Source: Cellulomonas fulva (GTDB lineage Bacteria > Actinomycetota > Actinomycetes > Actinomycetales > Cellulomonadaceae). From it: a stretch of DNA of 64,000 nt. This document shows positions 5,881-25,744 of the stretch, in pieces. The stretch spans positions 2,976,001 to 3,040,000 of the forward strand of contig NZ_JAHBOH010000001.1 of the NCBI RefSeq assembly GCF_018531375.1, read 5' to 3'. A model generated the notes under the pieces. That model did no database searches and was not told where the DNA came from. It saw only the letters and a list, made by a program, of their open reading frames with translations. Positions within the stretch are counted from its first letter, which is position 1. Every line of letters begins with the position of its first letter. A program made the position numbers and the translations under genes.

Positions 5881-5990
5881 CCCTCAGTGTGTGCCGCGCA
5901 CGCGGTCCCCGCGACGTGCGGCCACCCCGGCCCTCCCCGGGCGTGGCGCCGGTGCGGACGACGAGCGTCGTGCACCTAAGGTGTCCCGCG

Positions 5991-7460
5991 ATGATCACGC
6001 GTGCCGAGGGGGCGTACCTGGGGGCTGTCCGGGCGTTCCAGAACCCCATGCTCGACCTGCTGCACAAGCGGCACGCGCCGCTCGTCGTCGCGCTGCTGTC
6101 GGTGACCTTCACCGCGGAGCGACCCACGGTGCCCGTGGCGGACGCCCACACCGAGATCGGCGACGCCCTGGACCAGCTGCGCGCGGCGGGCTACGACGAC
6201 GGGCTGCCGGTCGGGACGGCGCGGGACCTGTGCCGGCAGTGGGCGGACGCCGGCTGGCTGGTCCGCCAGGTGCTCGACGACGACGTGGAGACCTACCGCC
6301 TGTCCGCGCACGCGGTCGGCGCGCTCGAGGTCGCAGGACGGGCGGGCGGTGCGCGGGCGCGCGTCTCGCAGTCGCGGGTGCGCACGCTGCTCGACGCGGT
6401 CGAGCGCCTCGCCCAGGACGCCGACCCGGACGTCCTGGTGCGCATGGCGCGGCTCGACGCGGAGATCCGCCGCCTGCAGGCGGAGCTCGAGCGGGTGCAG
6501 CGCACCGGCACGGTCGAGGAGGTCGACGACGAGCAGCTGCTCGAAGAGGCCGAGAACGTCCTGCACCTGGTGCGCGAGCTCCCGGCGGACTTCGCGCGCG
6601 TGGCCGAGTCGATCCGCGCGATGCAGCGCGACGTCGTCACCGCCCTGCGGCAGGACGAGCGCCCGACGGGCGACGTGCTGCGCGAGTACCTGGAGCGCGG
6701 CGAGCACGTCATGGAGTCGACCGTCGAGGGGCGCGCGTTCTCCGGGGCGCTGCGGCTGATCGGCGACCCGCAGCGGATCGACGAGCTCGCGCACCAGCTC
6801 GACGTGGTGCTGCGGCACCGGTTCACGCGGCGGCTCCCGGAGCAGCAGCGCGCCGAGCTGGCCGAGATCGTACGGCGCATCGAGCACGGCCTCGCGCAGG
6901 TGTTCGCCGCGCAGCGTGAGGCGTCGTACGTCATCACCGCGCAGGTCCGCAACCACGACCCGCTGCGCGACCGGCAGGTGGACGCGCTGCTCCGCGACGT
7001 CATGACGGGGCTGCAGGACTGGATGCCGGGCTCGCGGCGGTTCCAGCCGGTCGCGCCGCTGCGCCGGCTGCCCGTGGCCGACGTGGACCACCTGCGCCAG
7101 ACCGCGGGCGACCTGCGTCCGCCCGAGCCGCCCGCCGCGCTCGTCGTCTGGACCGACGACGAGCACGACGTCTCCCCCGACGACGCGCGCGCCTGGGGCG
7201 GGCCGCACTACGCCGAGCTCACGGCTCACCTGCGGACGCTGGGGCCCGACGAGGTCGCGGTCGCGGTCGCGTTCGACGCGGCGCCCGACGAGCTGCGTCG
7301 CCCGGTCGACCTGCTCGGCCTGCTGGAGATCGCGCACCTGCGCGGCATGACGGAGACCGACGAGCTCGCGTTCGTCGACGCGCTGCGGCCCGACGGCACC
7401 CGTCGTCGCCTCGCGTTCGGCGGCGTCACCACCCGCACGAAGGACGAGACCCATGACTGA
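5991..7460 (+). CDS. jetA: JetA / MksF-like kleisin (DUF3375)
   Basis: A protein of 489 residues matching the DUF3375 (JetA) pattern: an N-terminal winged-helix region ([20 protein letters not shown]), [31 protein letters not shown], a long helical middle ([52 protein letters not shown]) and a C-terminal regulatory part. In Wadjet/MksBEFG systems JetA is the kleisin bridging the heads of the SMC protein JetC. I start at ATG 5991, where similarity begins and an AAGGTG lies 7 bases upstream; longer readings run into unrelated sequence. It overlaps jetB by 8 bases (ATGACTGA), implying coupled translation. Confidence 0.88.
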
Positions 7461-8223
7461 CCCGACGTCCGCGCCGGTCGCTGCGCCCGACGAGCACGCC
7501 GCGGGGTTCATCGCGCCCGTCGCGATGGAGGACGACCCGGCCGAGCTGTTCGCCGGCGACTCCGGCACCCTCGACGCCGACGTGCGGCGCGTGCTGGTCC
7601 GCCTGCTGCAGCGGCGCTTCCTCCTCGCGGACAGGAACCGCGCGCAGTGGCGGACCCTCCTGGAGAACCAGCAGGTCATCGAGTCGCGGCTGCACGACCT
7701 GTTCGTCCACCTCGTCGTCGACCACGACCGCGGCCTGGCCTACAAGCGGCAGGTGCGCTCCGCCGAGCTCGACGTCCCCGTGCTGCTGCGCGACGACGCG
7801 TACTCGCGCGCCGAGACGCTCGTGCTGGTGCACCTGCGCTCGGTGTTCCAGCGCGAGCGCGGCTCGGGCGAGACGTCGGTGCGCGTCGACGTCGAGGAGA
7901 TCGAGCAGACCGCGCTCACGTACTTCGATCCCGACGACACGAACGTGGCGACGCACCAGCGGGAGATCCGCGCCGCGGTGCAGCGGCTCGCCAAGGACGG
8001 GCTGATCGACGAGGAGTCCGAGGGCCGGTACCGCGTCACCCCCCTGGTCGAGGTGGTGCTGAGCAACGAGCGGCTGGTCGAGCTGCAGCGCTGGCTGCGG
8101 ACCCCCGACGAGCAGACGCCCGACGAGGTGGCGCCCGACGAGGTGGCGCCCGACGAGGTGGCGCCCGACGAGCAGACGCCCGACGAGATGGCGCACGACG
8201 AGATGGTGGAGGCCGACCGGTGA
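7453..8223 (+). CDS. jetB: JetB / MksE-like subunit (DUF4194)
   Basis: A protein of 256 residues of the DUF4194 family, the MukE/MksE-like winged-helix partner of the JetA kleisin. Typical stretches are [46 protein letters not shown], followed by [10 protein letters not shown] and [35 protein letters not shown]. The C-terminus carries seven perfect-length pentapeptide repeats of the form [T/A]-P/H-D-E-[Q/V/M], which are not part of the domain as I know it. The gene is sandwiched between jetA (8-base overlap) and jetC (4-base GTGA overlap), so all three products are probably made in fixed proportion. Confidence 0.88.
8101..8205 (+). repeat. 7 x 15-nt in-frame repeat at the end of jetB
   Basis: Seven head-to-tail 15-nt units encode the pentapeptides [30 protein letters not shown] and AHDEM. 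The near identity of the DNA, not only the protein, suggests recent expansion by slippage or recombination. Confidence 0.92.
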
Positions 8224-11200
8224 CGATGATCGACTCGCTCTTCGGCCTGATCCCGGCGGCCTCGACCGGGCAGCAGTGGGTCGCCCGCGACCTGCAGCTG
8301 GTGAACTGGGGCGGGTACGACGGGCACCACCTGATCCGCCTCGCGTCGACCGCGACCTTGCTGTCCGGCGGCTCGGGATCGGGCAAGTCCACGCTGATGG
8401 ACGCCTACATCGCGCTCCTCATGCCGCACACCACGCCGTTCAACGGCGCCTCGAACGGCGGCGTCGTCGGGCGGCCCCGCGGCAAGGACCAGCGCAACAT
8501 CCTGTCCTACGCGCGCGGCAAGCTCGACGAGTCCCGCACCGAGGACGGCACACGCCAGACGGTGCTGCGCGGGGACGGCCGCGACACGTGGTCGGCGATC
8601 GCGATGACGTGGGTGGACCAGTCCGGCACGCAGCTCACCGCGGTGCGCGCCTGGTACGTGCCGGCCACCGCGCGCGTGCTCGAGGACGTGGTCGCGGTCC
8701 GCGCGACCGCCGACGGCCCGTTCGACCTGCGCGACCTCGAGCCTGCGGCGGCGCAGCGGTTCGGCCGCGCGGCAGTGGCCGCCACGGGTCTGACCTGCTT
8801 CGACACCGACCGTGAGCTGACGGCGCGCCTGCACTCGACCCTCGGCATCGGTGCGGCGGGCGACGGCAACAAGGCGGTCGCGCTGCTCGGGCGCATCCAG
8901 GCGGGCCAGCAGATCACCACGGTCGACGCCCTCTACAAGGCGATGGTGCTCGAGGAGCCGGACACGTTCGCGACGGCCGAGGCCGTGGTGGAGCAGTTCG
9001 ACAAGCTCAGCGGCACGCGCGAGCAGATGATCACGGCGCGTCAGCAGGTCAAGGCGCTCGAGCCGATCCGGCAGCACCGGGCGGACATCGAGGCCGCCGG
9101 TGAGCGCCTGCGGGTGATGGAGCAGATCGGCGGGTTCGACGAGCCCGCGTCGCCCGCGGCCCTGTGGAAGCACGGCCGCCGGCTCGACCTGCTGCGGGCC
9201 GCCGAGCAGGACCTGCAGCGGCGCCACCAGCAGGCCCGCGGCCTGGTGACCGAGACCCAGGCACGCGTGACCGCCGCGCGCGTCGAGCTCGACGGCGTCA
9301 AGGAGACCCTGTGGTCCTCCGGCGGGGACCGGCTCGCCACCGCCCAGCGCGAGCGCAAGGCCCTGGACGCCCGCCTCGACGACGTGCGGCGCGCGCGGGC
9401 GCGGCTCGACGAGGTGCTCGCCGCCCTGCCCGGCGAGCAGGTCGCGTCGCAGGCCGACCTCGTCGCCCTCGTCGGACGTGCGCACGCGGCCCTGCAGGAC
9501 ACCGACGCGAAGGCCACCGCGCGCGCCGCGCTCTTCGACGCGATGCAGGAGAAGAAGGAGGCGGCGGCGGACCTGACCGACCTGCGGGCGGAGCGCGCCG
9601 CGGTCGCACGGCGGCAGGACAACATCCCCGGCCCGTTGCACGCCGCGCGCGCCGCGCTGGCCCAGGCGGCCGGGCTCACCCCGGAGGACCTGCCCTTCGT
9701 CGCCGAGCTCGTCGAGGTCCGCACCGAGCACGAGCCGTGGCGCGGCGCGTTCAACCTGGCGCTGGGCGGGTTCGCGACGCTGATGCTCATCGACGTCGCC
9801 CACCTGCGGGCGTTCCGGGCCGCGATCGACGCGGTGCCGACTGCGCGCCGGATCCAGTTCGAGGGCGTGCCGACCGGGCTCACGGACGACGTGGGGCTCG
9901 ACGCGCGGACGCTGCCCGGCCGGCTGGACTACCGCTCCGGGCCGTTCACCGGCTGGGTGCGTGCCGAGCTCGCCCGCCGGTTCGCATACGTGTGCGTGGA
10001 CACGCCCGGGGAGCTCGCGCAGCACGCCAAGGCGCTGACCCGCGGGGGCCAGGTCTCGGAGGGCGCCCGCGGCGCGCACGGTGGTCAGAGCGGCGCCAAC
10101 GTCCTGGGCTTCACGAACGACCGTCGCCTGGCCGACCTGGACCGGCAGCTCGACCGCGCCGAGGAACGGCTGCGCTCCGCCGAGCGCCAGGTCACGGAAG
10201 CCGAGCGCGACCTGGACCGCCAGGACACGCGGCGGCGCGCGTTCGAGGCCGTCGTCGACCTCACCTGGGAGCAGGTCGACGTCGCGACCATCGAGGACGC
10301 GCAGGCACGGTGGGACCAGGTCGTCACCGACGTGACCTCGGGCAACCCGGAGGTCACGCGCCTGCAGCGGCGCGCCGACGAGCTCGACACGACGATCCAC
10401 GTGCTCACCGAGCAGCTCGGCCGGGCCAAGGGCAGCGTCGACGCGCTGGCCGAGGCGTGGTCGACGGTCACCGACGACGTCGACGCCGCGCAGCGGGCGC
10501 TCGACGAGGCACGGGCAGACGCGCAGGAGGACGCGCAGGACGATGCGCAGGAGGACGCGCACGCGGACCGCACGCTCGTCGGACCCGAGCAGCGCGCCTA
10601 CCTCGAGCAGCTCCTGGGCGCGGGCGGCGACGCGACCGACGGGCAGCCCGCGGACGCCGCCGGGGCGCTGCGGGCGCTCGACGACGTGCTCGCGCGCGCG
10701 GGCGAGCTGCTCCGCGCGGACCGCCAGGCCGCCCAGCAGACCATCGGCGCGGCACGGGACGCGCTGCGGCGGACGTTCGAGACGTTCGTCGAGCGCTGGC
10801 CGGACCCGAACCTGGGCACCGACCCCGAGGCGTCGTTCGGCGACTTCGAGCGCATCCTCGTCGAGCTCGAGACGAGCGGGCTGCACGAGCTCGAGGACGA
10901 GTGGCGGCGCAGCCTGCTGCGCCTGTCCGGCAACGACCTCACGGATCTGCACAGCGCCCTGGTGCGCTCCGTGCGCGAGATCAAGGAGCGCATCCGGCCC
11001 GTCAACGACATCCTCGCCGACCTGCCCTTCGCCGACGACCACCACCGCCTGCGGATCGACGCTCGCGACACCCAGTCGGCGGTCGTCGCCCGGTTCCGCA
11101 AAGAGCTCCGCGACCTGCGCGAGCTGCTGGCCACCGAGGCGACCGACGCCGAGCGGGAGCGCCGCTACCTGCGCATGGCGAAGGTGATCGACCGGATCCG

Positions 11201-11642
11201 GCGGACCGCTCCGGACCACGCCGACCTGGTCGACGTGCGCCGGCACGTGCGCCTGTCGGCGGAGAAGATCGACCTCGACGGCCACCACGTCGCGCTGTAC
11301 GACCACATCGGCGAGAAGTCCGGCGGCGAGTCGCAGGAGCTCGTCGCGTTCATCGTCGGCGCCGCCCTGCGCTACCAGCTCGGCGACGCCGGCGCCGAGC
11401 GCCCCCGGTACGCCCCGGTGTTCTTGGACGAGGCCCTCATCAAGGCCGACGCGCGGTTCACCGGCCGGGCCGTCGGCGCCTGGCGCGGACTCGGCTTCCA
11501 GCTCGTCATCGGTGCGCCGAACGACAAGTTCAGCGCGCTCGAGCCGCACGTGGACCTCAAGTACGTCGTCCTCAAGGACGCCACGGGCCGTTCCCGCACC
11601 AAGCCGATCGCGGGCGTCTCCGCGGAGCCGCCGACAGCGTGA
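8220..11642 (+). CDS. jetC: JetC / MksB-like SMC ATPase
   Basis: A protein of 1140 residues with SMC architecture. The Walker A is GGSGSGKST (residues 50-58). Long coiled coils flank a hinge-like centre (about 440-640). The C-terminal head carries the signature KSGGESQE (about 1033) and Walker [10 protein letters not shown] (about 1067) with the catalytic Glu. This matches JetC, the MukB/MksB-like motor of Wadjet, which extrudes DNA loops. An acidic repeat ([15 protein letters not shown], bases 10519-10563) sits in the second coiled coil. Start is GTG 8220, overlapping the jetB stop; ATG 8226 is an alternative. Downstream, a Toprim nuclease gene (jetD/mksG) would be expected, but a luciferase-like oxidoreductase begins after only 28 bases. 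Confidence 0.9.
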
Positions 11643-11670
11643 TCCCCGCGGCCGACCTACGGTGGGTCGT

Positions 11671-12447
11671 ATGACCTTTCCTGTGCGCATCGGTGTCCAG
11701 CTCCAGCCCCAGCACGCCGACTACGGCCAGATCCGCGACGCGGTGCGCCGCGCCGAGGACCTGGGCGTCGACGTGATCTTCAACTGGGACCACTTCTTCC
11801 CGCTCAGCGGCGACCCCGACGGCAAGCACTTCGAGTGCTGGACCATGCTCGGCGCGTGGGCCGAGCAGACCGAGCGGGTCCAGATCGGCGCGCTCGTCAC
11901 CTGCAACTCCTACCGGAACCCGGAGCTGCTCGCGGACATGGCGCGGACGGTCGACCACATCAGCGGCGGGCGGCTGCTCCTCGGCATCGGTGCCGGCTGG
12001 TTCGAGAAGGACTACGACGAGTTCGGGTACGAGTTCGGCACCGCGGGTGGGCGCATCGCGGACCTCGCCGCGGCGCTCCCCCGCATCAAGGCCCGGTGGG
12101 CGCGGTCCAACCCGCTGCCGACGCGGGACATCCCGGTGCTGATCGGCGGCGGGGGTGAGCGCAAGACCCTGCGCGTCGTCGCCGAGCACGCCGACGTCTG
12201 GCACACGTTCGGCGACGCCGAGACCCTGGCGCGCAAGAGCGGGATCCTCGACGAGCACGGCGCGGCCGTGGGCCGGGACACGGCGAGCCTCGTCGAGCGC
12301 TCCGTCGGCGTCTCGGCGCCGCCGAGCGAGCAGTCGCCCGCCCTCCTCGAGGCCGGGGCGACGCTGTTCACCGTCGGCGTCTCCGGGCCGGACTACGACC
12401 TCTCGCTCGTCGAGCAGTGGGTGGCCTGGCGCGACGCCCGCGGCTGA
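11671..12447 (+). CDS. LLM-class flavin (probably F420)-dependent oxidoreductase
   Basis: A protein of 258 residues with the luciferase-like monooxygenase TIM barrel: RIGVQLQPQHADYGQIRDAVRRAEDLGVDVIFNWDHFFP, LGAWAEQTERVQIGALVTCNSYRNPELLADMARTVDHISGGRLLLGIGAGW and PVLIGGGGERKTLRVVAEHADVW are diagnostic. It is somewhat shorter than typical members (about 280-340 residues) because the C-terminal part is compact. The close sequence style of F420-dependent actinobacterial members suggests F420 as cofactor, but FMN cannot be excluded. The substrate is unknown. It follows jetC by 28 bases on the same strand and may be read through from that operon, although nothing links it functionally. Confidence 0.85.
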   Translation: MTFPVRIGVQLQPQHADYGQIRDAVRRAEDLGVDVIFNWDHFFPLSGDPDGKHFECWTMLGAWAEQTERVQIGALVTCNSYRNPELLADMARTVDHISGGRLLLGIGAGWFEKDYDEFGYEFGTAGGRIADLAAALPRIKARWARSNPLPTRDIPVLIGGGGERKTLRVVAEHADVWHTFGDAETLARKSGILDEHGAAVGRDTASLVERSVGVSAPPSEQSPALLEAGATLFTVGVSGPDYDLSLVEQWVAWRDARG

Positions 12448-13248: not shown

Positions 13249-15492
13249 TCAGGCGACCTCGTCCTCGGCCGCGGGAGCGATGTAGAAGTTGTCCCGGAAG
13301 AGCCCGGTCGGGTCGTAGCGCCGCTTGAGCTCGCGCAGGCGCGCCAGGTGGGCCGGCGGGAACGCGCGGGCCACCACGTCCGCACCCTCGTCGGACTCAA
13401 AGCTCAGGTACATGCCCTCGAGGTGCGGCTCGAGGCGGCGCCACCAGGTGTCGAGGCCCGACGCGCGGGTGCCCATCGCCGCGATGTTGAACGCGGCGTC
13501 CCGCCACGCGTACGCCGTCGCGTCCGTCGGCACGTCGGACACGGCCCCGCCGACCGCGCGGATCTGGAAGAAGTGCGCGGCCCCGGCGTCGAGCAGCGCG
13601 GTCGCCTCCGCCGCGAGCTCGGGCGTCAGGTGCCGGACCATGCCGGAGTGCGAGTGCGGCTCACCCTGCCCACGCTGCGGCCCCTCCTGGTGGAACGCCC
13701 CCATGATCTCGTCGTACCGCGCGAGCGCGACGGACTGGTCGAGCAGCGGCGCGACCGCCGCCACCGGGCCGAGCCGCTCGATGATCGTCTCGGGGTCGTC
13801 GGAGTCGACGACGAGCATGGCCTGGGCGTAGCGGGGCTGGCCCGGCCGCGTCGCGCCGAGGACCAGCTGGCCCGTGACGGACCGGTGCGAGGACTCGATC
13901 GCGGTCCCCCAGCGCACCAGCAGGTCGGTCAGGTCGCCGGCGTCGAGCACCAGCTGCGCGAAGCCGACCTGGCCGACGGGCGCGGCCTCGATCTCGACCG
14001 AGACCACGACACCGAAGTTGGCCCCCGCGCCGCGCATGCCCCAGAACAGGTCGACGTTCTCGTCGTCCGAGGCGCGCACCAGCGACCCGTCGGCGAGCAC
14101 GACGTCCATCGAGCGCACGCGGTCGATGGTCAGCCCGTGCTCGCGCGCGAACCAGCCGACGCCGCCGGCCGTCACGAGGCCCCCGACACCCACGCCGCCG
14201 TAGTCGCCGCTCGTGATCGCCAGGCCGTGCGGTGCGAGGCCGCGCGCGACGTCGATCCAGCGTGCGCCCGGACCCAGGCGCACGCGGCCGGTCGCCTCGT
14301 CGAGCACCGTCACCTCGTTCAGCGCGCTCACGTCGACGACGAGCCCGCCGTGGTTGACCGAGCGGCCCGAGATCCCGTGGCCCGCGCTGAGGAGCCCGAG
14401 CGGGAGGTCGCGGTGCCGGTCGGCGAACGCGATCGAATCGCGCACCTGGTCCACGGTCTGCGGCCGCAGCGCGAGCCCGGGCGCGCCTCCGCGCAGGTAC
14501 GACGAGGTGTAGCGGGCGTAGCCGCGGTCGCCGGGCTCGACCGCGTTCTCGACCAGCGACGCGGGCAGCTCGTCGTAGGCGATCCCCGGCAGCCGCTGCG
14601 CGAGCGCGACGGCGTTGCGGACACGGCCGGCGGGCGCGGTCCCGCGCGCCGAGCGCTCCCGGGCGACACGCTCCCGGACGTCCGGCATCACGTCGCCGGC
14701 GAACCGCTCGAGCACGCGCGGGTCGTCCGCCGCGACGATGAACACGCTCACGCCGTCCTCGAGCGCGAGCTCGGCGATCTCGTCCGCCCCGAGCGGCCCG
14801 ATGTTGAGCAGCCGGGTGACCTCGCGCGGGTCGCGGCCGGCCGCCTGCGCAGCCTCGTCGATCGTCGCGTTGCCGCGCTGGAGGTCACCGGGCTGCAGGT
14901 AGCTCTGCGAGGGCAGCCAGCCGTCCGCCGAGCGTCCGATGAGGCGCAGCATCCGCGGCTTGAGCGCGCCCAGCCAGATCGGGATGTCGTGCGCGGGAGC
15001 GGGACCGCGCTTGGCGCCCGTGACGTGGTGGTGCTCGCCGCCGGCGCGCAGCGGGCCGCGCGCGTCGGCGTCCCAGATCCCCCGGATCACCTCGAGCGCC
15101 TCGCTGAGCGCGTCCACCCCCTGGCCCGGCGTGAGGCGGCCGCCACCCATGGCCTCGATGGCGTCCCAGAACGCGCCCGCGCCGAGGCCGAGGTTGACCC
15201 GGCCGCCCGAGAGCAGGTCGAGGCTCGCCGCCGAGCGCGCCAGGACCGCGGGCTGGCGCAGCGGCAGGTTCAGCACGTTGCCCGCGAGGCCGATCCGCTC
15301 CGTGCGGGCGGCCACCCAGGTCAGGAGCGTCCACGTGTCGTGGAACGACGGCTGATACGGGTGGTCCTGGAACGTGACCAGGTCGAAGCCGAGCTCCTCG
15401 CTGAGCTGGGCGAGCTTGACCGGCCGCTCGGGCGGCGCGTTGACGGGCGTGACGAACGTGCCGAAGCGCAGGGGGTGACCGTAGTCGGGCAT
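13249..15492 (-). CDS. Fusion of LLM oxidoreductase with FAD-binding BBE-type oxidoreductase
   Basis: One uninterrupted 747-residue frame joins two enzymes. Residues about 1-300 are a luciferase-like flavin oxidoreductase (GTFVTPVNAPPE, DLVTFQDHPYQPSF, LLSGGRVNLGLGAGAFWD, IPIWLGALKPRMLRLIGRSADGWLP). Residues about 320-747 are a vanillyl-alcohol-oxidase-type FAD domain (LSAGHGISGRSVNHGGLVVDVSALN, with a His where covalent FAD is often attached; GVGVGGLVTAGGVGWFAREHGL) ending in a BBE motif (RRYDPTGLFRDNFYI). No stop or frame change lies at the junction, so the fusion is real in this sequence. It could pass electrons or product between two flavin sites. It faces the HxlR regulator across 65 bases holding GTAAG/CTTAC repeats. 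The substrate is unknown. Confidence 0.87.
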   Translation of the reverse strand: MPDYGHPLRFGTFVTPVNAPPERPVKLAQLSEELGFDLVTFQDHPYQPSFHDTWTLLTWVAARTERIGLAGNVLNLPLRQPAVLARSAASLDLLSGGRVNLGLGAGAFWDAIEAMGGGRLTPGQGVDALSEALEVIRGIWDADARGPLRAGGEHHHVTGAKRGPAPAHDIPIWLGALKPRMLRLIGRSADGWLPSQSYLQPGDLQRGNATIDEAAQAAGRDPREVTRLLNIGPLGADEIAELALEDGVSVFIVAADDPRVLERFAGDVMPDVRERVARERSARGTAPAGRVRNAVALAQRLPGIAYDELPASLVENAVEPGDRGYARYTSSYLRGGAPGLALRPQTVDQVRDSIAFADRHRDLPLGLLSAGHGISGRSVNHGGLVVDVSALNEVTVLDEATGRVRLGPGARWIDVARGLAPHGLAITSGDYGGVGVGGLVTAGGVGWFAREHGLTIDRVRSMDVVLADGSLVRASDDENVDLFWGMRGAGANFGVVVSVEIEAAPVGQVGFAQLVLDAGDLTDLLVRWGTAIESSHRSVTGQLVLGATRPGQPRYAQAMLVVDSDDPETIIERLGPVAAVAPLLDQSVALARYDEIMGAFHQEGPQRGQGEPHSHSGMVRHLTPELAAEATALLDAGAAHFFQIRAVGGAVSDVPTDATAYAWRDAAFNIAAMGTRASGLDTWWRRLEPHLEGMYLSFESDEGADVVARAFPPAHLARLRELKRRYDPTGLFRDNFYIAPAAEDEVA

Positions 15493-22003: not shown

Positions 22004-25000
22004 TCACTGGAAGTCGCGCGAGCTGGAGCGCACGCGCAGGGACAGCGGTGACAGGTGCTCGGCGACGATGTTGGTCGCGCCGTCCTGACGTTCCAGCAGG
22101 CCGCGCACGACGAGCGCCTTGCTGGTCCGTGCAGTGCGCCGGAACCGCTGCCAGAGCCCGGCCGAGCACACCACGTTGAGCAGCCCGGTCTCGTCCTCGA
22201 GCGACAGGAACGTGACGCCGCCGGCGGTGCCCGGGCGCTGCCGGTGCGTCACGACCCCGGCGACCGCGACCCGTCGGCCGGTCTCGTGCCGGTAGGCGGC
22301 CTCGACCCGCAGCACTCCCGCCGCGTCGAGCCCGTCGCGGACGAACTGGGTGGGGTAGGAGTCCACCGACACGCCCGTGGCCCACACGTCCGCGGTGGCC
22401 GTCTCGAGGTCGCTGAGCCCGGGCAGGGTGGGGGCCTCGACCCCGACGCTCACGCCCGGCAGCGTCTGCGGACCCTCCTGCGCCAGGGCCCCCGCGGCCC
22501 ACAAGGCCTCACGGCGCGTGACGCCGAGGCCGTCCAGCGCACCGGCCGTGGCCAGGGCCTCGAGCTGTGCGGTCGTGAGCTGGACCCGGCGCACCAGGTC
22601 GCGCTGGTCGACGAACGGACCGTGCGCGGCACGCTCGTCGACGACCTTCTGCGCGAGCTCCTCCCCGATCCCCCGGACGGCGACGAGCCCGAGCCGCACC
22701 GCGAGCGAACGAGCGGCACAGGGGTGCCGGCCGTCGGAGCCCCGCGCCGCGCCCGTGCGCGTCCCCGGCGCGGGAGTGGGTCCCGTCCCGCTCGGCTGCG
22801 GGACCAGGCGTGGCTCTCCACCGGCCGGTTCCGGGGCCACCCGCTCGACGCCGGCCTGCGCGAGCGAGTGCTGCACATCGGGGCGCAGCACCTCGATGCC
22901 GTGGCGGCGGGCGTCCGCGGCCAGGCTCTGCGGCGAGTAGAAGCCCATCGGCTGCGCCGCGAGCAGGCCCGCGTAGAACGCGGCCGGGTAATGCACCTTG
23001 AGCCAGGCGCTCGCGTAGACCAGGAACGCGAACGAGTACGCGTGCGACTCGGGGAACCCGAAGTCGGCGAACGCCTTGAGCTTGTCGAAGATCTGCTCGC
23101 CGACCTCGGGGGTGATGCCGTGCCGGGCCATCCCGGCCATGAGTCGCTCCTTGATCGCGAGCATGCGCTCGGTCGACCGCTTGGAGCCCATGGCCCGCCG
23201 CAGCTGGTCCGCCTCCGCCGGCGTGAAGTCGGCGACGTCGATGGCCATCTGCATGAGTTGCTCCTGGAACAGCGGCACGCCGAGCGTCTTGCTCAGGGAG
23301 CGCTCGAGCAGCGGGTGCAGGTAGGTCACCTTCTGCCGCCCGCGGGCACGCTCGATGTACGGGTGCACCGAGTTGCCCTGGATCGGCCCCGGGCGGATCA
23401 GCGCGACCTCGATGACGATGTCGTAGAAGCACCGCGGCTGCAGGCGCGGCAGCGTCCCCATCTGGGCACGCGACTCCACCTGGAAGACCCCCACCGTGTC
23501 CGCGGCGCTCAGCAGGTCGTACACCAGCGGGTCGTCCTGCGGCAGCGCGTGCAGGTCGAGCTCGGGTCCACCGAGCTCCCGGACCGAGGTGAACGCGATC
23601 CGCAGCGCGGTCAGCATCCCCAGGCCCAGCAGGTCGAACTTCACCAGTCCCGCGTCGGCGCAGTCCTCCTTGTCCCACTGCAGCACCGTGCGGCCCGGCA
23701 TCCGTGCCCACTCCACCGGGCAGACCTCGATCACCGGGCGGTCGCACATCACCATGCCGCCCGAGTGGATGCCCAGGTGCCGCGGCAGCCGCAGGAACCG
23801 CTCGGCCAGGTCGATGACCTGCTCGGGGATCTCGCCCTCGTCGTCCGCCGAGGGCGGCAGGTGCACCGGCACGACGTCGTGACCGTCGGCGGTAGCCAGC
23901 CCCGGCACCTCGGCGCCCCGCGGTGCGCGTGCGGGAGCCGGTGCCGGGCGCGCCGACGCACCCGCCGTGCCCGACCCCCAGAGCGCCGCCCGCGCCTGCA
24001 GCCGCTCGTGGCGGCCCGTCACCACGGGTGGCCACGCACCCGTGTGCCCTGCGTGCGGCCGGGACGTGCGGACCGGTCCCGACAAACCGCTGCCTGCACC
24101 GTCGCTGCCCGAGCCGGTTCCTGAGCCGCCGCTGCCGGGGGCACCGCGTGGGGCGCCATCCGAACCTCCCGTACCAGTCGCCCGCGCCGACGAGCTGTCC
24201 GGCGACCCGTCGTCGACGGGTGCGGCGCGCAGGCTGCCCCAGCGCTCGATCGACTTGGCCCACGCATCCTGCTGCCCCGCGTCGTAGCCGAGCGCCCGCG
24301 CGGCGTCGCGCACCGCCGACCGCGGACGGTAGGAGATCACGTTCGCCACCTGCGCGGCGTGCTCCCGGCCGTGCTGGCCGTAGACGTACTGGATGACCTC
24401 CTCCCGGCGCGCGGACTCGATGTCCACGTCGATGTCGGGCGGCCCGTCCCGCTCCGGGGCCAGGAACCTCTCGAACAGCAGACCGTGGTGCACCGGGTCG
24501 ACCGCGGTGACGCGCAGCGCGTAGCAGACCGCCGAGTTGGCGGCCGAGCCGCGCCCCTGCGCCAGGATCCCGTTGCGCCGGCAGAACGCGACCAGGTCGT
24601 AGACCACCAGGAAGTAGCCGGGGAACCCGAGCTCCTCGATGACCCGCAGCTCGTGCTCGAGCTGCGCGTACGCGCCCTCGACGCGTGCGGTCTCCGGCGG
24701 GCCGTACAGCTCGAGCGCGCCGCGACGGACCAGCTCGCGCAGCCACGAGGCCTCGGTGTGACCCGGTGGCACCGGGTAGGGCGGCAGCGACGGCGCGACG
24801 AGCGACAGGTCGAACGCGCACTCGGCGGCCAGGTCGGCGGCGGTGGCGACCGCGTGCGGGTACCGCCGGTGCAGCCGGAGCATCTCGCTCGCCGAGCGCA
24901 GGTGCGCCCCCGGACCGGCCGGGAGCCAGCCGTCCAGGTCGTCCAACGACGAGCGGGCGCGCACGGCCGCGAGCGCCGCCGCGAGGTCGGCGTCGCGCGG

Positions 25001-25744
25001 GGTGGCCTGGTGCGCGGCGGTGGTCGCGACCAGCGGCAGCCCGGTGTCCTGTGCGAGCACGGCGAGCGCGTCCGCACGCTCGTCGTCGTACGCGTCCCCC
25101 GCCGCCGTGACCTCGACGGCGACGTTGTCCTTCCCGAACAGCGCGACGAGGCGGTCGAGCTCGCGCGCCGCCGCGGCGAGCCCACCGGGCGCGACCGGGA
25201 CCACGCCGGACGGGTCCCCGCCGGCGAGCGCCCGGCGCACCGCGCCCTTCCGGCAGCCCGTGAGCACCAGCCACTGCCCGGCCGCGGCCTGGGCGAGCTC
25301 CTCCAGGTGGTACTCCGCGGCGCCCTTGCGCCCGGTGCGCAGGTGCCCCTCGGCGATCGCCCGGGAGAGCGCCCGGTAGCCGTCGGGGCCGCGCGCGAGC
25401 ACCAGGAGGTGCGCCGCGCGCGGGTCGGGCACGCCCGTGGGCTCGTCGAGCACCGGCGGTCCGGGTGCCGGTGCCGGCTCGCGCCCGTGACGACGCGCGT
25501 CCGGGGCCGGCAGGTGCAGCTCCGCGCCGAACACGGTGCCGACCCCGACCCGGCGCGCTGCCTCGGCGAACCGCACCACCCCGTACAGCCCGTCGTGGTC
25601 AGTCAGCGCCAGCGCGCTCAGCCCCAGGCGCGCCGCCTCCGCCGCGAGCTCCTCGGGCTGGCTGGCACCGTCGAGGAAGCTGAACGCCGAGTGGGCGTGC
25701 AGCTCGGCATAGCGCGCGCCCACCCTCGTCGAGGGGTCAGTCAT
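22004..25744 (-). CDS. dnaE2: Error-prone DNA polymerase III alpha (DnaE2)
   Basis: A protein of 1246 residues. The N-terminal PHP domain starts YAELHAHSAFSFLDGASQP. The palm shows GRGSAANSAVCYALRVT and the catalytic PDIDVDIE (about residue 435). Finger and hairpin regions (HLGIHSGGMVM, FLVYASAWLKVHYPAAFYAGLL) and an OB domain (VAGVVTHRQRPGTAGGVTFLSLEDETG) follow. It is the translesion polymerase of the mutasome, acting with ImuA' and ImuB after DNA damage. Two low-complexity Gly/Ser/Pro insertions, about residues 502-621 and 970-1015, make it longer than usual for DnaE2 (around 1050-1100). The start overlaps the imuB stop by 8 bases (ATGACTGA), and it is the last gene of the operon. Confidence 0.95.
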   Translation of the reverse strand: MTDPSTRVGARYAELHAHSAFSFLDGASQPEELAAEAARLGLSALALTDHDGLYGVVRFAEAARRVGVGTVFGAELHLPAPDARRHGREPAPAPGPPVLDEPTGVPDPRAAHLLVLARGPDGYRALSRAIAEGHLRTGRKGAAEYHLEELAQAAAGQWLVLTGCRKGAVRRALAGGDPSGVVPVAPGGLAAAARELDRLVALFGKDNVAVEVTAAGDAYDDERADALAVLAQDTGLPLVATTAAHQATPRDADLAAALAAVRARSSLDDLDGWLPAGPGAHLRSASEMLRLHRRYPHAVATAADLAAECAFDLSLVAPSLPPYPVPPGHTEASWLRELVRRGALELYGPPETARVEGAYAQLEHELRVIEELGFPGYFLVVYDLVAFCRRNGILAQGRGSAANSAVCYALRVTAVDPVHHGLLFERFLAPERDGPPDIDVDIESARREEVIQYVYGQHGREHAAQVANVISYRPRSAVRDAARALGYDAGQQDAWAKSIERWGSLRAAPVDDGSPDSSSARATGTGGSDGAPRGAPGSGGSGTGSGSDGAGSGLSGPVRTSRPHAGHTGAWPPVVTGRHERLQARAALWGSGTAGASARPAPAPARAPRGAEVPGLATADGHDVVPVHLPPSADDEGEIPEQVIDLAERFLRLPRHLGIHSGGMVMCDRPVIEVCPVEWARMPGRTVLQWDKEDCADAGLVKFDLLGLGMLTALRIAFTSVRELGGPELDLHALPQDDPLVYDLLSAADTVGVFQVESRAQMGTLPRLQPRCFYDIVIEVALIRPGPIQGNSVHPYIERARGRQKVTYLHPLLERSLSKTLGVPLFQEQLMQMAIDVADFTPAEADQLRRAMGSKRSTERMLAIKERLMAGMARHGITPEVGEQIFDKLKAFADFGFPESHAYSFAFLVYASAWLKVHYPAAFYAGLLAAQPMGFYSPQSLAADARRHGIEVLRPDVQHSLAQAGVERVAPEPAGGEPRLVPQPSGTGPTPAPGTRTGAARGSDGRHPCAARSLAVRLGLVAVRGIGEELAQKVVDERAAHGPFVDQRDLVRRVQLTTAQLEALATAGALDGLGVTRREALWAAGALAQEGPQTLPGVSVGVEAPTLPGLSDLETATADVWATGVSVDSYPTQFVRDGLDAAGVLRVEAAYRHETGRRVAVAGVVTHRQRPGTAGGVTFLSLEDETGLLNVVCSAGLWQRFRRTARTSKALVVRGLLERQDGATNIVAEHLSPLSLRVRSSSRDFQ

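Follow-up and report, generated by a model that had tools for sequence, protein, structure and literature searches.

The jetABC operon of Cellulomonas fulva is, on the evidence of its predicted proteins, an intact SMC operon of the Wadjet type I/MksBEF type, and loss of the nuclease gene jetD from its 3′ side is well supported by comparison with related species. The operon would encode a Wadjet type I/MksBEF complex without the nuclease, and this complex most likely acts as a second condensin beside Smc-ScpAB, a reading to which we give a probability of about 0.6. In Wadjet and MksBEFG systems, the fourth subunit, JetD or MksG, is a Toprim nuclease and performs the cleavage. Nuclease-less MksBEF complexes are known from Pseudomonas, and that of P. 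aeruginosa is a chromosome-organising condensin. The host is a soil bacterium with a genome of 3.74 Mb in 3 contigs, rated 100% complete; the whole stretch of DNA analysed, hereafter the window, comprises 64,000 nucleotides (C1:2976001-3040000).

An earlier note on this DNA described three overlapping genes, jetA, jetB, and jetC, and both their positions and their families were confirmed by profile matches (Table 1). JetA (DUF3375), JetB (DUF4194), and JetC (SMC ATPase) are thus encoded in one operon, as expected of Wadjet type I. The jetC frame starts with GTG at 8220, which gives a 4-base overlap with jetB; an alternative ATG lies at 8226. The jetB product also scores above the cut-off of the MksE family PF21980 (30.7 versus 27 bits), and JetC stays below the level of the MukB family (NCBIfam MukB, 21.5 bits versus a cut-off of 699). 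Solved structures related to JetA (8q72 and 8dk1) and to JetC (8dk2 and 8as8) are those of Wadjet proteins. The stretches GGSGSGKS, KSGGE, and VFLDEA, which we take to be the Walker A, signature, and Walker B motifs, can all be read in JetC, in agreement with the earlier description of its ATP site as intact.

Table 1. Features of the jetABC locus, in window coordinates
Feature	Coordinates	Strand	Evidence
Promoter-like block CACCTAAGGTGTCCCGCG, immediately 5′ of the jetA ATG	5973..5990	+	Putative leaderless-type -10 element
jetA/mksF, kleisin subunit, 489 aa	5991..7460	+	PF11855, 399.9 bits, 2.1e-119; PADLOC JetA1, 696.9 bits
jetB/mksE, KITE subunit, 256 aa	7453..8223	+	PF13835, 146.8 bits, 6.3e-43; PADLOC JetB1, 366 bits
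jetC/mksB, SMC ATPase subunit, 1140 aa	8220..11642	+	PADLOC JetC1, 1643.8 bits; AAA_29 and SbcC_Walker_B
Gap, probable former site of jetD, 28 bases	11643..11670	+	jetD at the orthologous site in L189 (G511) and L193 (G517); no remnant seen
Luciferase-like oxidoreductase, synteny anchor outside the system	11671..12447	+	PF00296; ATG at 11671

The block before jetA contains a recurrent pattern, CTA[CA]G[CG]TG, which was picked by eye after inspection of the same jetA upstream sequences. It occurs no more than 22 bases 5′ of the start in 22 of 29 jetA genes of the genus and in 9 of 82 from other genera, and upstream of none of 776 other plus-strand genes in the first locus set. Gene calls in the loci come from a codon model built for this analysis.

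In its JetA, JetB, and JetC families, gene order, gene overlaps, and ATPase motifs, the operon resembles Wadjet type I (JetABCD) and MksBEFG, for example that of Corynebacterium glutamicum, and the closest PADLOC models are JetA1, JetB1, and JetC1. In contrast to those systems, no JetD or MksG was found here in the locus or the genome. The Toprim nuclease (DUF3322/DUF2220) that belongs to a Wadjet type I operon is missing from this one, and the absence of JetD from the window, reported earlier, was upheld when a 400-position JetD profile was run against all stop-to-stop frames of at least 40 codons and gave no match at E 1. The complete genome was then covered, as the earlier note had proposed. 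No match was obtained at E 0.001 with PF09983, with PF11795, or with a profile (A2) of 13 JetD proteins, 8 of which come from the window's JetC clade; as a control, both Pfam families detect C. glutamicum among 14 control genomes. With the genome-wide searches for JetD/MksG empty, the locus has the composition of MksBEF, i.e., homologues of MksB, MksE, and MksF without MksG.

Another nuclease had also been considered as a partner. No linked replacement was found among the neighbouring genes to which Pfam was applied; these have metabolic or housekeeping functions and vary between lineages. That a different, unlinked nuclease cuts in trans is very unlikely. Retention of an N-terminal JetB motif, roughly F[IV].PV.MEDD...LF.GD.GTL, in loci without jetD would fit such a partner, as the available part of a review reports that JetD contacts an IFDR motif at the JetB N terminus (PMC10586767); the equivalence of the two motifs is an assumption, and the alignment to solved JetB chains begins after the N terminus and so excludes the retained motif. 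Against a nuclease in trans stand the lack of a candidate among the tested neighbours, the variation of these neighbours by lineage, and the absence of any OLD-type Toprim match in the genome. A genome search with AAA_15 gave 9 matches and was uninformative.

The comparison of jetABC neighbourhoods among relatives, also suggested earlier, revealed jetD loss at the orthologous site. The JetC nearest to the window's by score, 83% identical, is that of C. gelida (G511), where the gene order is jetA-jetB-jetC-jetD-luciferase-like gene, followed by more of the families that also lie 3′ of jetC in the window. The same jetABCD-luciferase-like order is present in G517. In the window, G518, and G140, the luciferase-like gene follows jetC directly, with no jetD between; the distance of 28 bases noted before for the window is exact. 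The window's luciferase-like gene is 89% identical to that after jetD in G511, 84% to that after jetD in G517, and 93% to that after jetC in G518. The junction in G140 looks as if a deletion had fused jetC to the last bases of jetD: over 14 identical bases, the end of jetC with its stop codon and the sequence after it match the 3′ terminus of jetD and what comes after it in G517. Two observations named in advance as contrary, a jetD elsewhere in this genome and a consistently unlinked jetD in relatives, were sought and neither was seen.

Intermediate states of the gene exist as well. In C. phragmiteti (G519), jetD carries an in-frame stop at residue 23; the next start codon is at residue 104 and the remainder of the frame is open, so that the gene could still yield a shortened protein. 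G542 and G524 retain no more than C-terminal pieces of jetD, behind an open jetC. Such remnants surfaced in the fuller genus survey, none having been detected behind jetC at E 0.01 in the first family locus set. At other fixed sites in the family, jetD is likewise present or absent, for instance in L100, where the site is flanked by leuS and a carbohydrate phosphorylase gene.

The JetD-less state is the common one in the genus and in the window's clade. Among 81 genomes of the genus, 51 contain a full-length in-clade JetC (at least 63% identity) and one more a fragment. A linked jetD is open in three of the 51 (G020, G511, and G517) and a remnant in three (the early-stop gene and the two fragments described above), and 45 have neither; 4 of these 45 have JetD or a JetD fragment elsewhere. 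In a family sample of 150 genomes, JetC was found in 107 (E 1e-30) and JetD_C in 23 (E 0.001). One hundred JetC loci were fetched from this sample, fragmentary JetC matches being mostly left out (that of G080 was taken in). The window's JetC clade accounts for 75 loci, the window included; jetD adjoins jetC in 8 and not in 67, with L091 counted among the latter although the absence is unsure there because the sequence ends ∼1.3 kb after jetC. Cross-tabulation by hand placed 58 of the 67 JetD-less loci in genomes without a PF09983 match and 9 in genomes with JetD elsewhere. Together with the three empty profile searches of the host genome, these counts leave the earlier option of a nuclease encoded elsewhere unsupported as far as JetD is concerned.

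The survey was extended to two further sets. Among 348 genomes sampled across the phylum, 22 contain a full JetA (E < 1e-70), 12 of them with a strong JetD_C match and 10 with none, a warning against taking matches to JetA, JetB, or JetC by themselves as evidence of plasmid defence. In the nine JetD_C-negative genomes other than the window's, the jetA, jetB, and jetC frames are open and JetD was unmatched in the fetched stretch. Four of 31 loci from named genomes (L209, L224, L228, and L239) show JetD as a long linked match; the early-stop jetD is in L210 and a fragment in L233, and the remaining 25 have none, 3 of them (L213, L215, and L235) with <1.3 kb of sequence after jetC. Plasmid-borne relatives of JetC amounted to 5 distant records with 30%–46% identity.

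The history of jetD was followed with trees. For 28 complete operons, the JetC and JetD trees contain the same main groups, with a path-distance correlation of 0.92, several within-group forks being unresolved and L045 (G120) and L047 (G135) left out; for the 11 in-clade operons only, the correlation is 0.52 (permutation p 0.02). Because the two trees agree, jetD appears to be old in this clade. In G135, JetD accompanies only a fragment of jetC. On a JetC tree of 96 rows, from which L124 (a partial gene model) was left out, the distribution of jetD needs 35 losses if no regain is allowed and 15 changes of either kind by plain parsimony, and the jetD label is not more clustered than in shuffled data (150 of 500 shuffles as low). 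An ancestral jetD that was deleted repeatedly would be the simplest account, and jetD may have been regained by recombination among relatives.

Taken further, such recombination leads to a different reading, in which the population keeps jetABC as a platform and strains lose jetD and reacquire it from one another, depending on how useful plasmids are at the time, so that defence is switched on and off. The scatter of jetD rows among the tips, where branches with good support require at least 14 changes of label, the presence and absence of jetD at the same locus in related species, and the lack of divergence of JetABC between the two states all speak for this reading. However, the agreement of the JetD and JetC trees favours loss over repeated regain from elsewhere, exchange among close relatives being unaffected by this argument, and groups of 6 and 16 loci are entirely without linked jetD. 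We regard the switching module as quite unlikely, and return to a motor that is kept after the cutter has gone.

The motor subunits are maintained. For 14 pairs without linked jetD (2 of them from other JetC lineages), dN/dS was 0.06–0.32 for JetC, 0.07–0.24 for JetA, and 0.02–0.50 for JetB, and these ratios show purifying selection on jetABC in pairs that lack a linked jetD. Three ATPase motif patterns were matched by 78 of 80 JetD-less JetC rows, the exceptions being the partial model L124 and L150. Of the JetD-bearing rows, which often come from distant lineages, 14 of 21 match all three, a proportion that shows the patterns to be crude. At least two neighbour families were shared with another locus by 72/80 loci without jetD versus 5/21 with jetD (Fisher 6e-9), and by 58/80 versus 4/21 when only other genera were counted; uneven sampling and the shortness of some contigs bias this comparison.

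The same data bear on whether the operon is a decaying remnant, a motor made useless by the loss of jetD and on its way out, which is the least probable of the readings weighed here. No JetC match at E 1e-100 was found in 20 of 72 good genus genomes (at least 90% complete and at most 5% contaminated), so jetABC is dispensable, and only JetA fragments are present in two genomes of another family (G436 and G496); both observations are what decay would leave. Yet dN/dS lies well below 1 in the 14 pairs, which had already weakened this reading, the ATPase patterns persist in nearly all JetD-less rows, and open jetABC without linked jetD fills whole groups of 6 (g25) and 16 loci (g21, g24, and g11). 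Retention of an intact motor across apparently repeated loss of jetD suggests that the motor serves some purpose by itself.

Signs of adaptation to a new role were not seen, because JetABC columns are not distinct beyond chance and the N-terminal JetB motif is retained. The genus genomes without a JetC match likewise count against a new role. Among 71 in-clade rows, JetD-specific columns numbered 1, 1, and 8 in JetA, JetB, and JetC, compared with random means of 2.6, 1.6, and 6.1 (L124 and L125-L127 left out). The absence of any relaxed JetD-specific column set in JetABC would also be expected if the complex still acted against plasmids without cleaving them: by extruding and compacting small circles, it would reduce their copy number or keep them silent, as Smc5/6 is proposed to do with circular viral DNA. 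Retention of the promoter-like block before jetA is in keeping with such an activity; the available part of the review mentioned above gives the Smc5/6 model for viral circles and regards JetABC as the part that senses small circles (PMC10586767). In C. glutamicum, in contrast, deletion of mksG had the same effect on plasmids as deletion of mksB or mksF in the results available from that study (PMC10123090); with the three deletions alike, MksBEF lacking MksG exerted no plasmid control of its own in that species. A non-cleaving anti-plasmid complex is an unlikely explanation.

The preferred reading, a second condensin, is favoured because the best-documented nuclease-less relative known is the MksBEF of P. 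aeruginosa. After the proposed repeated deletion of jetD and retention of jetABC, JetABC would still load on DNA and extrude loops using ATP, and would be unable to cut once extrusion of a small circle is complete. Beside Smc-ScpAB, it would contribute to DNA folding or segregation, the role that MksBEF has in P. aeruginosa. Loss of the cutter would lift the bar to small plasmids and remove the risk of self-cleavage. Of the three options raised in the earlier note, a loop-extruding complex without cleavage thus fits best, and it draws support from the loss of jetD at the orthologous site. The parallel with P. aeruginosa extends to a three-subunit, MukBEF-like complex without a nuclease, and may extend to Smc-ScpAB, which is present in the P. 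aeruginosa genome and of which ScpA was detected here (G000 C1:2785395-2786060). The differences are that the present operon belongs to another phylum and is known from sequence alone, and that its loss of the nuclease can be traced between related species at one locus. The MksBEFG of C. glutamicum, in which the nuclease is present, does not fold the chromosome according to the accessible part of one study (PMC7083940), which calls for caution with the condensin reading.

More generally, and tentatively, JetD in Actinobacteria could be an optional, easily lost subunit, with the main selected job of JetABC independent of it; we hold this broader proposal to be somewhat short of an even chance. 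If true, many "Wadjet" loci would encode condensins to which a plasmid-cutting subunit is added only in some cases, and the change from defence system to condensin would have been repeated, recently enough to be visible among related species within a single genus. Cellulomonas species in which jetD is present, damaged, or absent would form a natural comparison set for the change from a defence system to a chromosome-folding machine. An actinobacterial JetA, JetB, and JetC set without JetD has already been published as "Wadjet" in Paenarthrobacter lasiusi S21; unlike the present operon, it stands beside a complete type I system, and the missing JetD draws no comment there, as far as the accessible part of that report goes (PMC11719660, Table 6). 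Repeated jetD loss from actinobacterial operons that keep jetABC was not described in any paper found, key subscription papers lying outside the search.

Other lineages and settings of jetABC were encountered in the course of the survey. The jetABC operon directly follows leuS, in the same orientation, in several genera of the family (∼12 bases away in L100; also in L104). A carbohydrate phosphorylase gene often comes next, and a joint leuS-jetABC transcript is possible. The leuS family occurs in 36 of 75 in-clade loci, 2 of these with jetD. A second JetD-less JetABC lineage (L136-L139) has a JetC ∼28% identical to that of the window; the operon of L136 is near topA (DNA topoisomerase I), and the same gene family is found near the operon in L138 and L139. 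A third (L147-L149 and L151-L154), at ∼30% identity, lies mostly in a shared block with a gene of the F420 ligase family, and a class I tRNA synthetase gene is present in four of its loci. Seven JetABC loci without linked jetD (L159, L161-L164, L167, and L170) come from another family of the class (f8), and the genomes of L167 and L170 carry JetD elsewhere. A C-terminal JetD fragment in L199 (G504), at 6699-7229, is most like the JetD of another Wadjet lineage and lies in a 14-kb stretch with no JetC match. In the window itself, a 747-aa protein at 13249-15492 on the minus strand combines a luciferase-like monooxygenase with an FAD-binding domain (PF00296 and PF01565). dnaE (DNA polymerase III alpha) is encoded on the same strand at 22007-25711, ∼10 kb from jetC, as two tblastn pieces in one frame; the first locus set includes 11 gene calls of the dnaE family close to jetABC.
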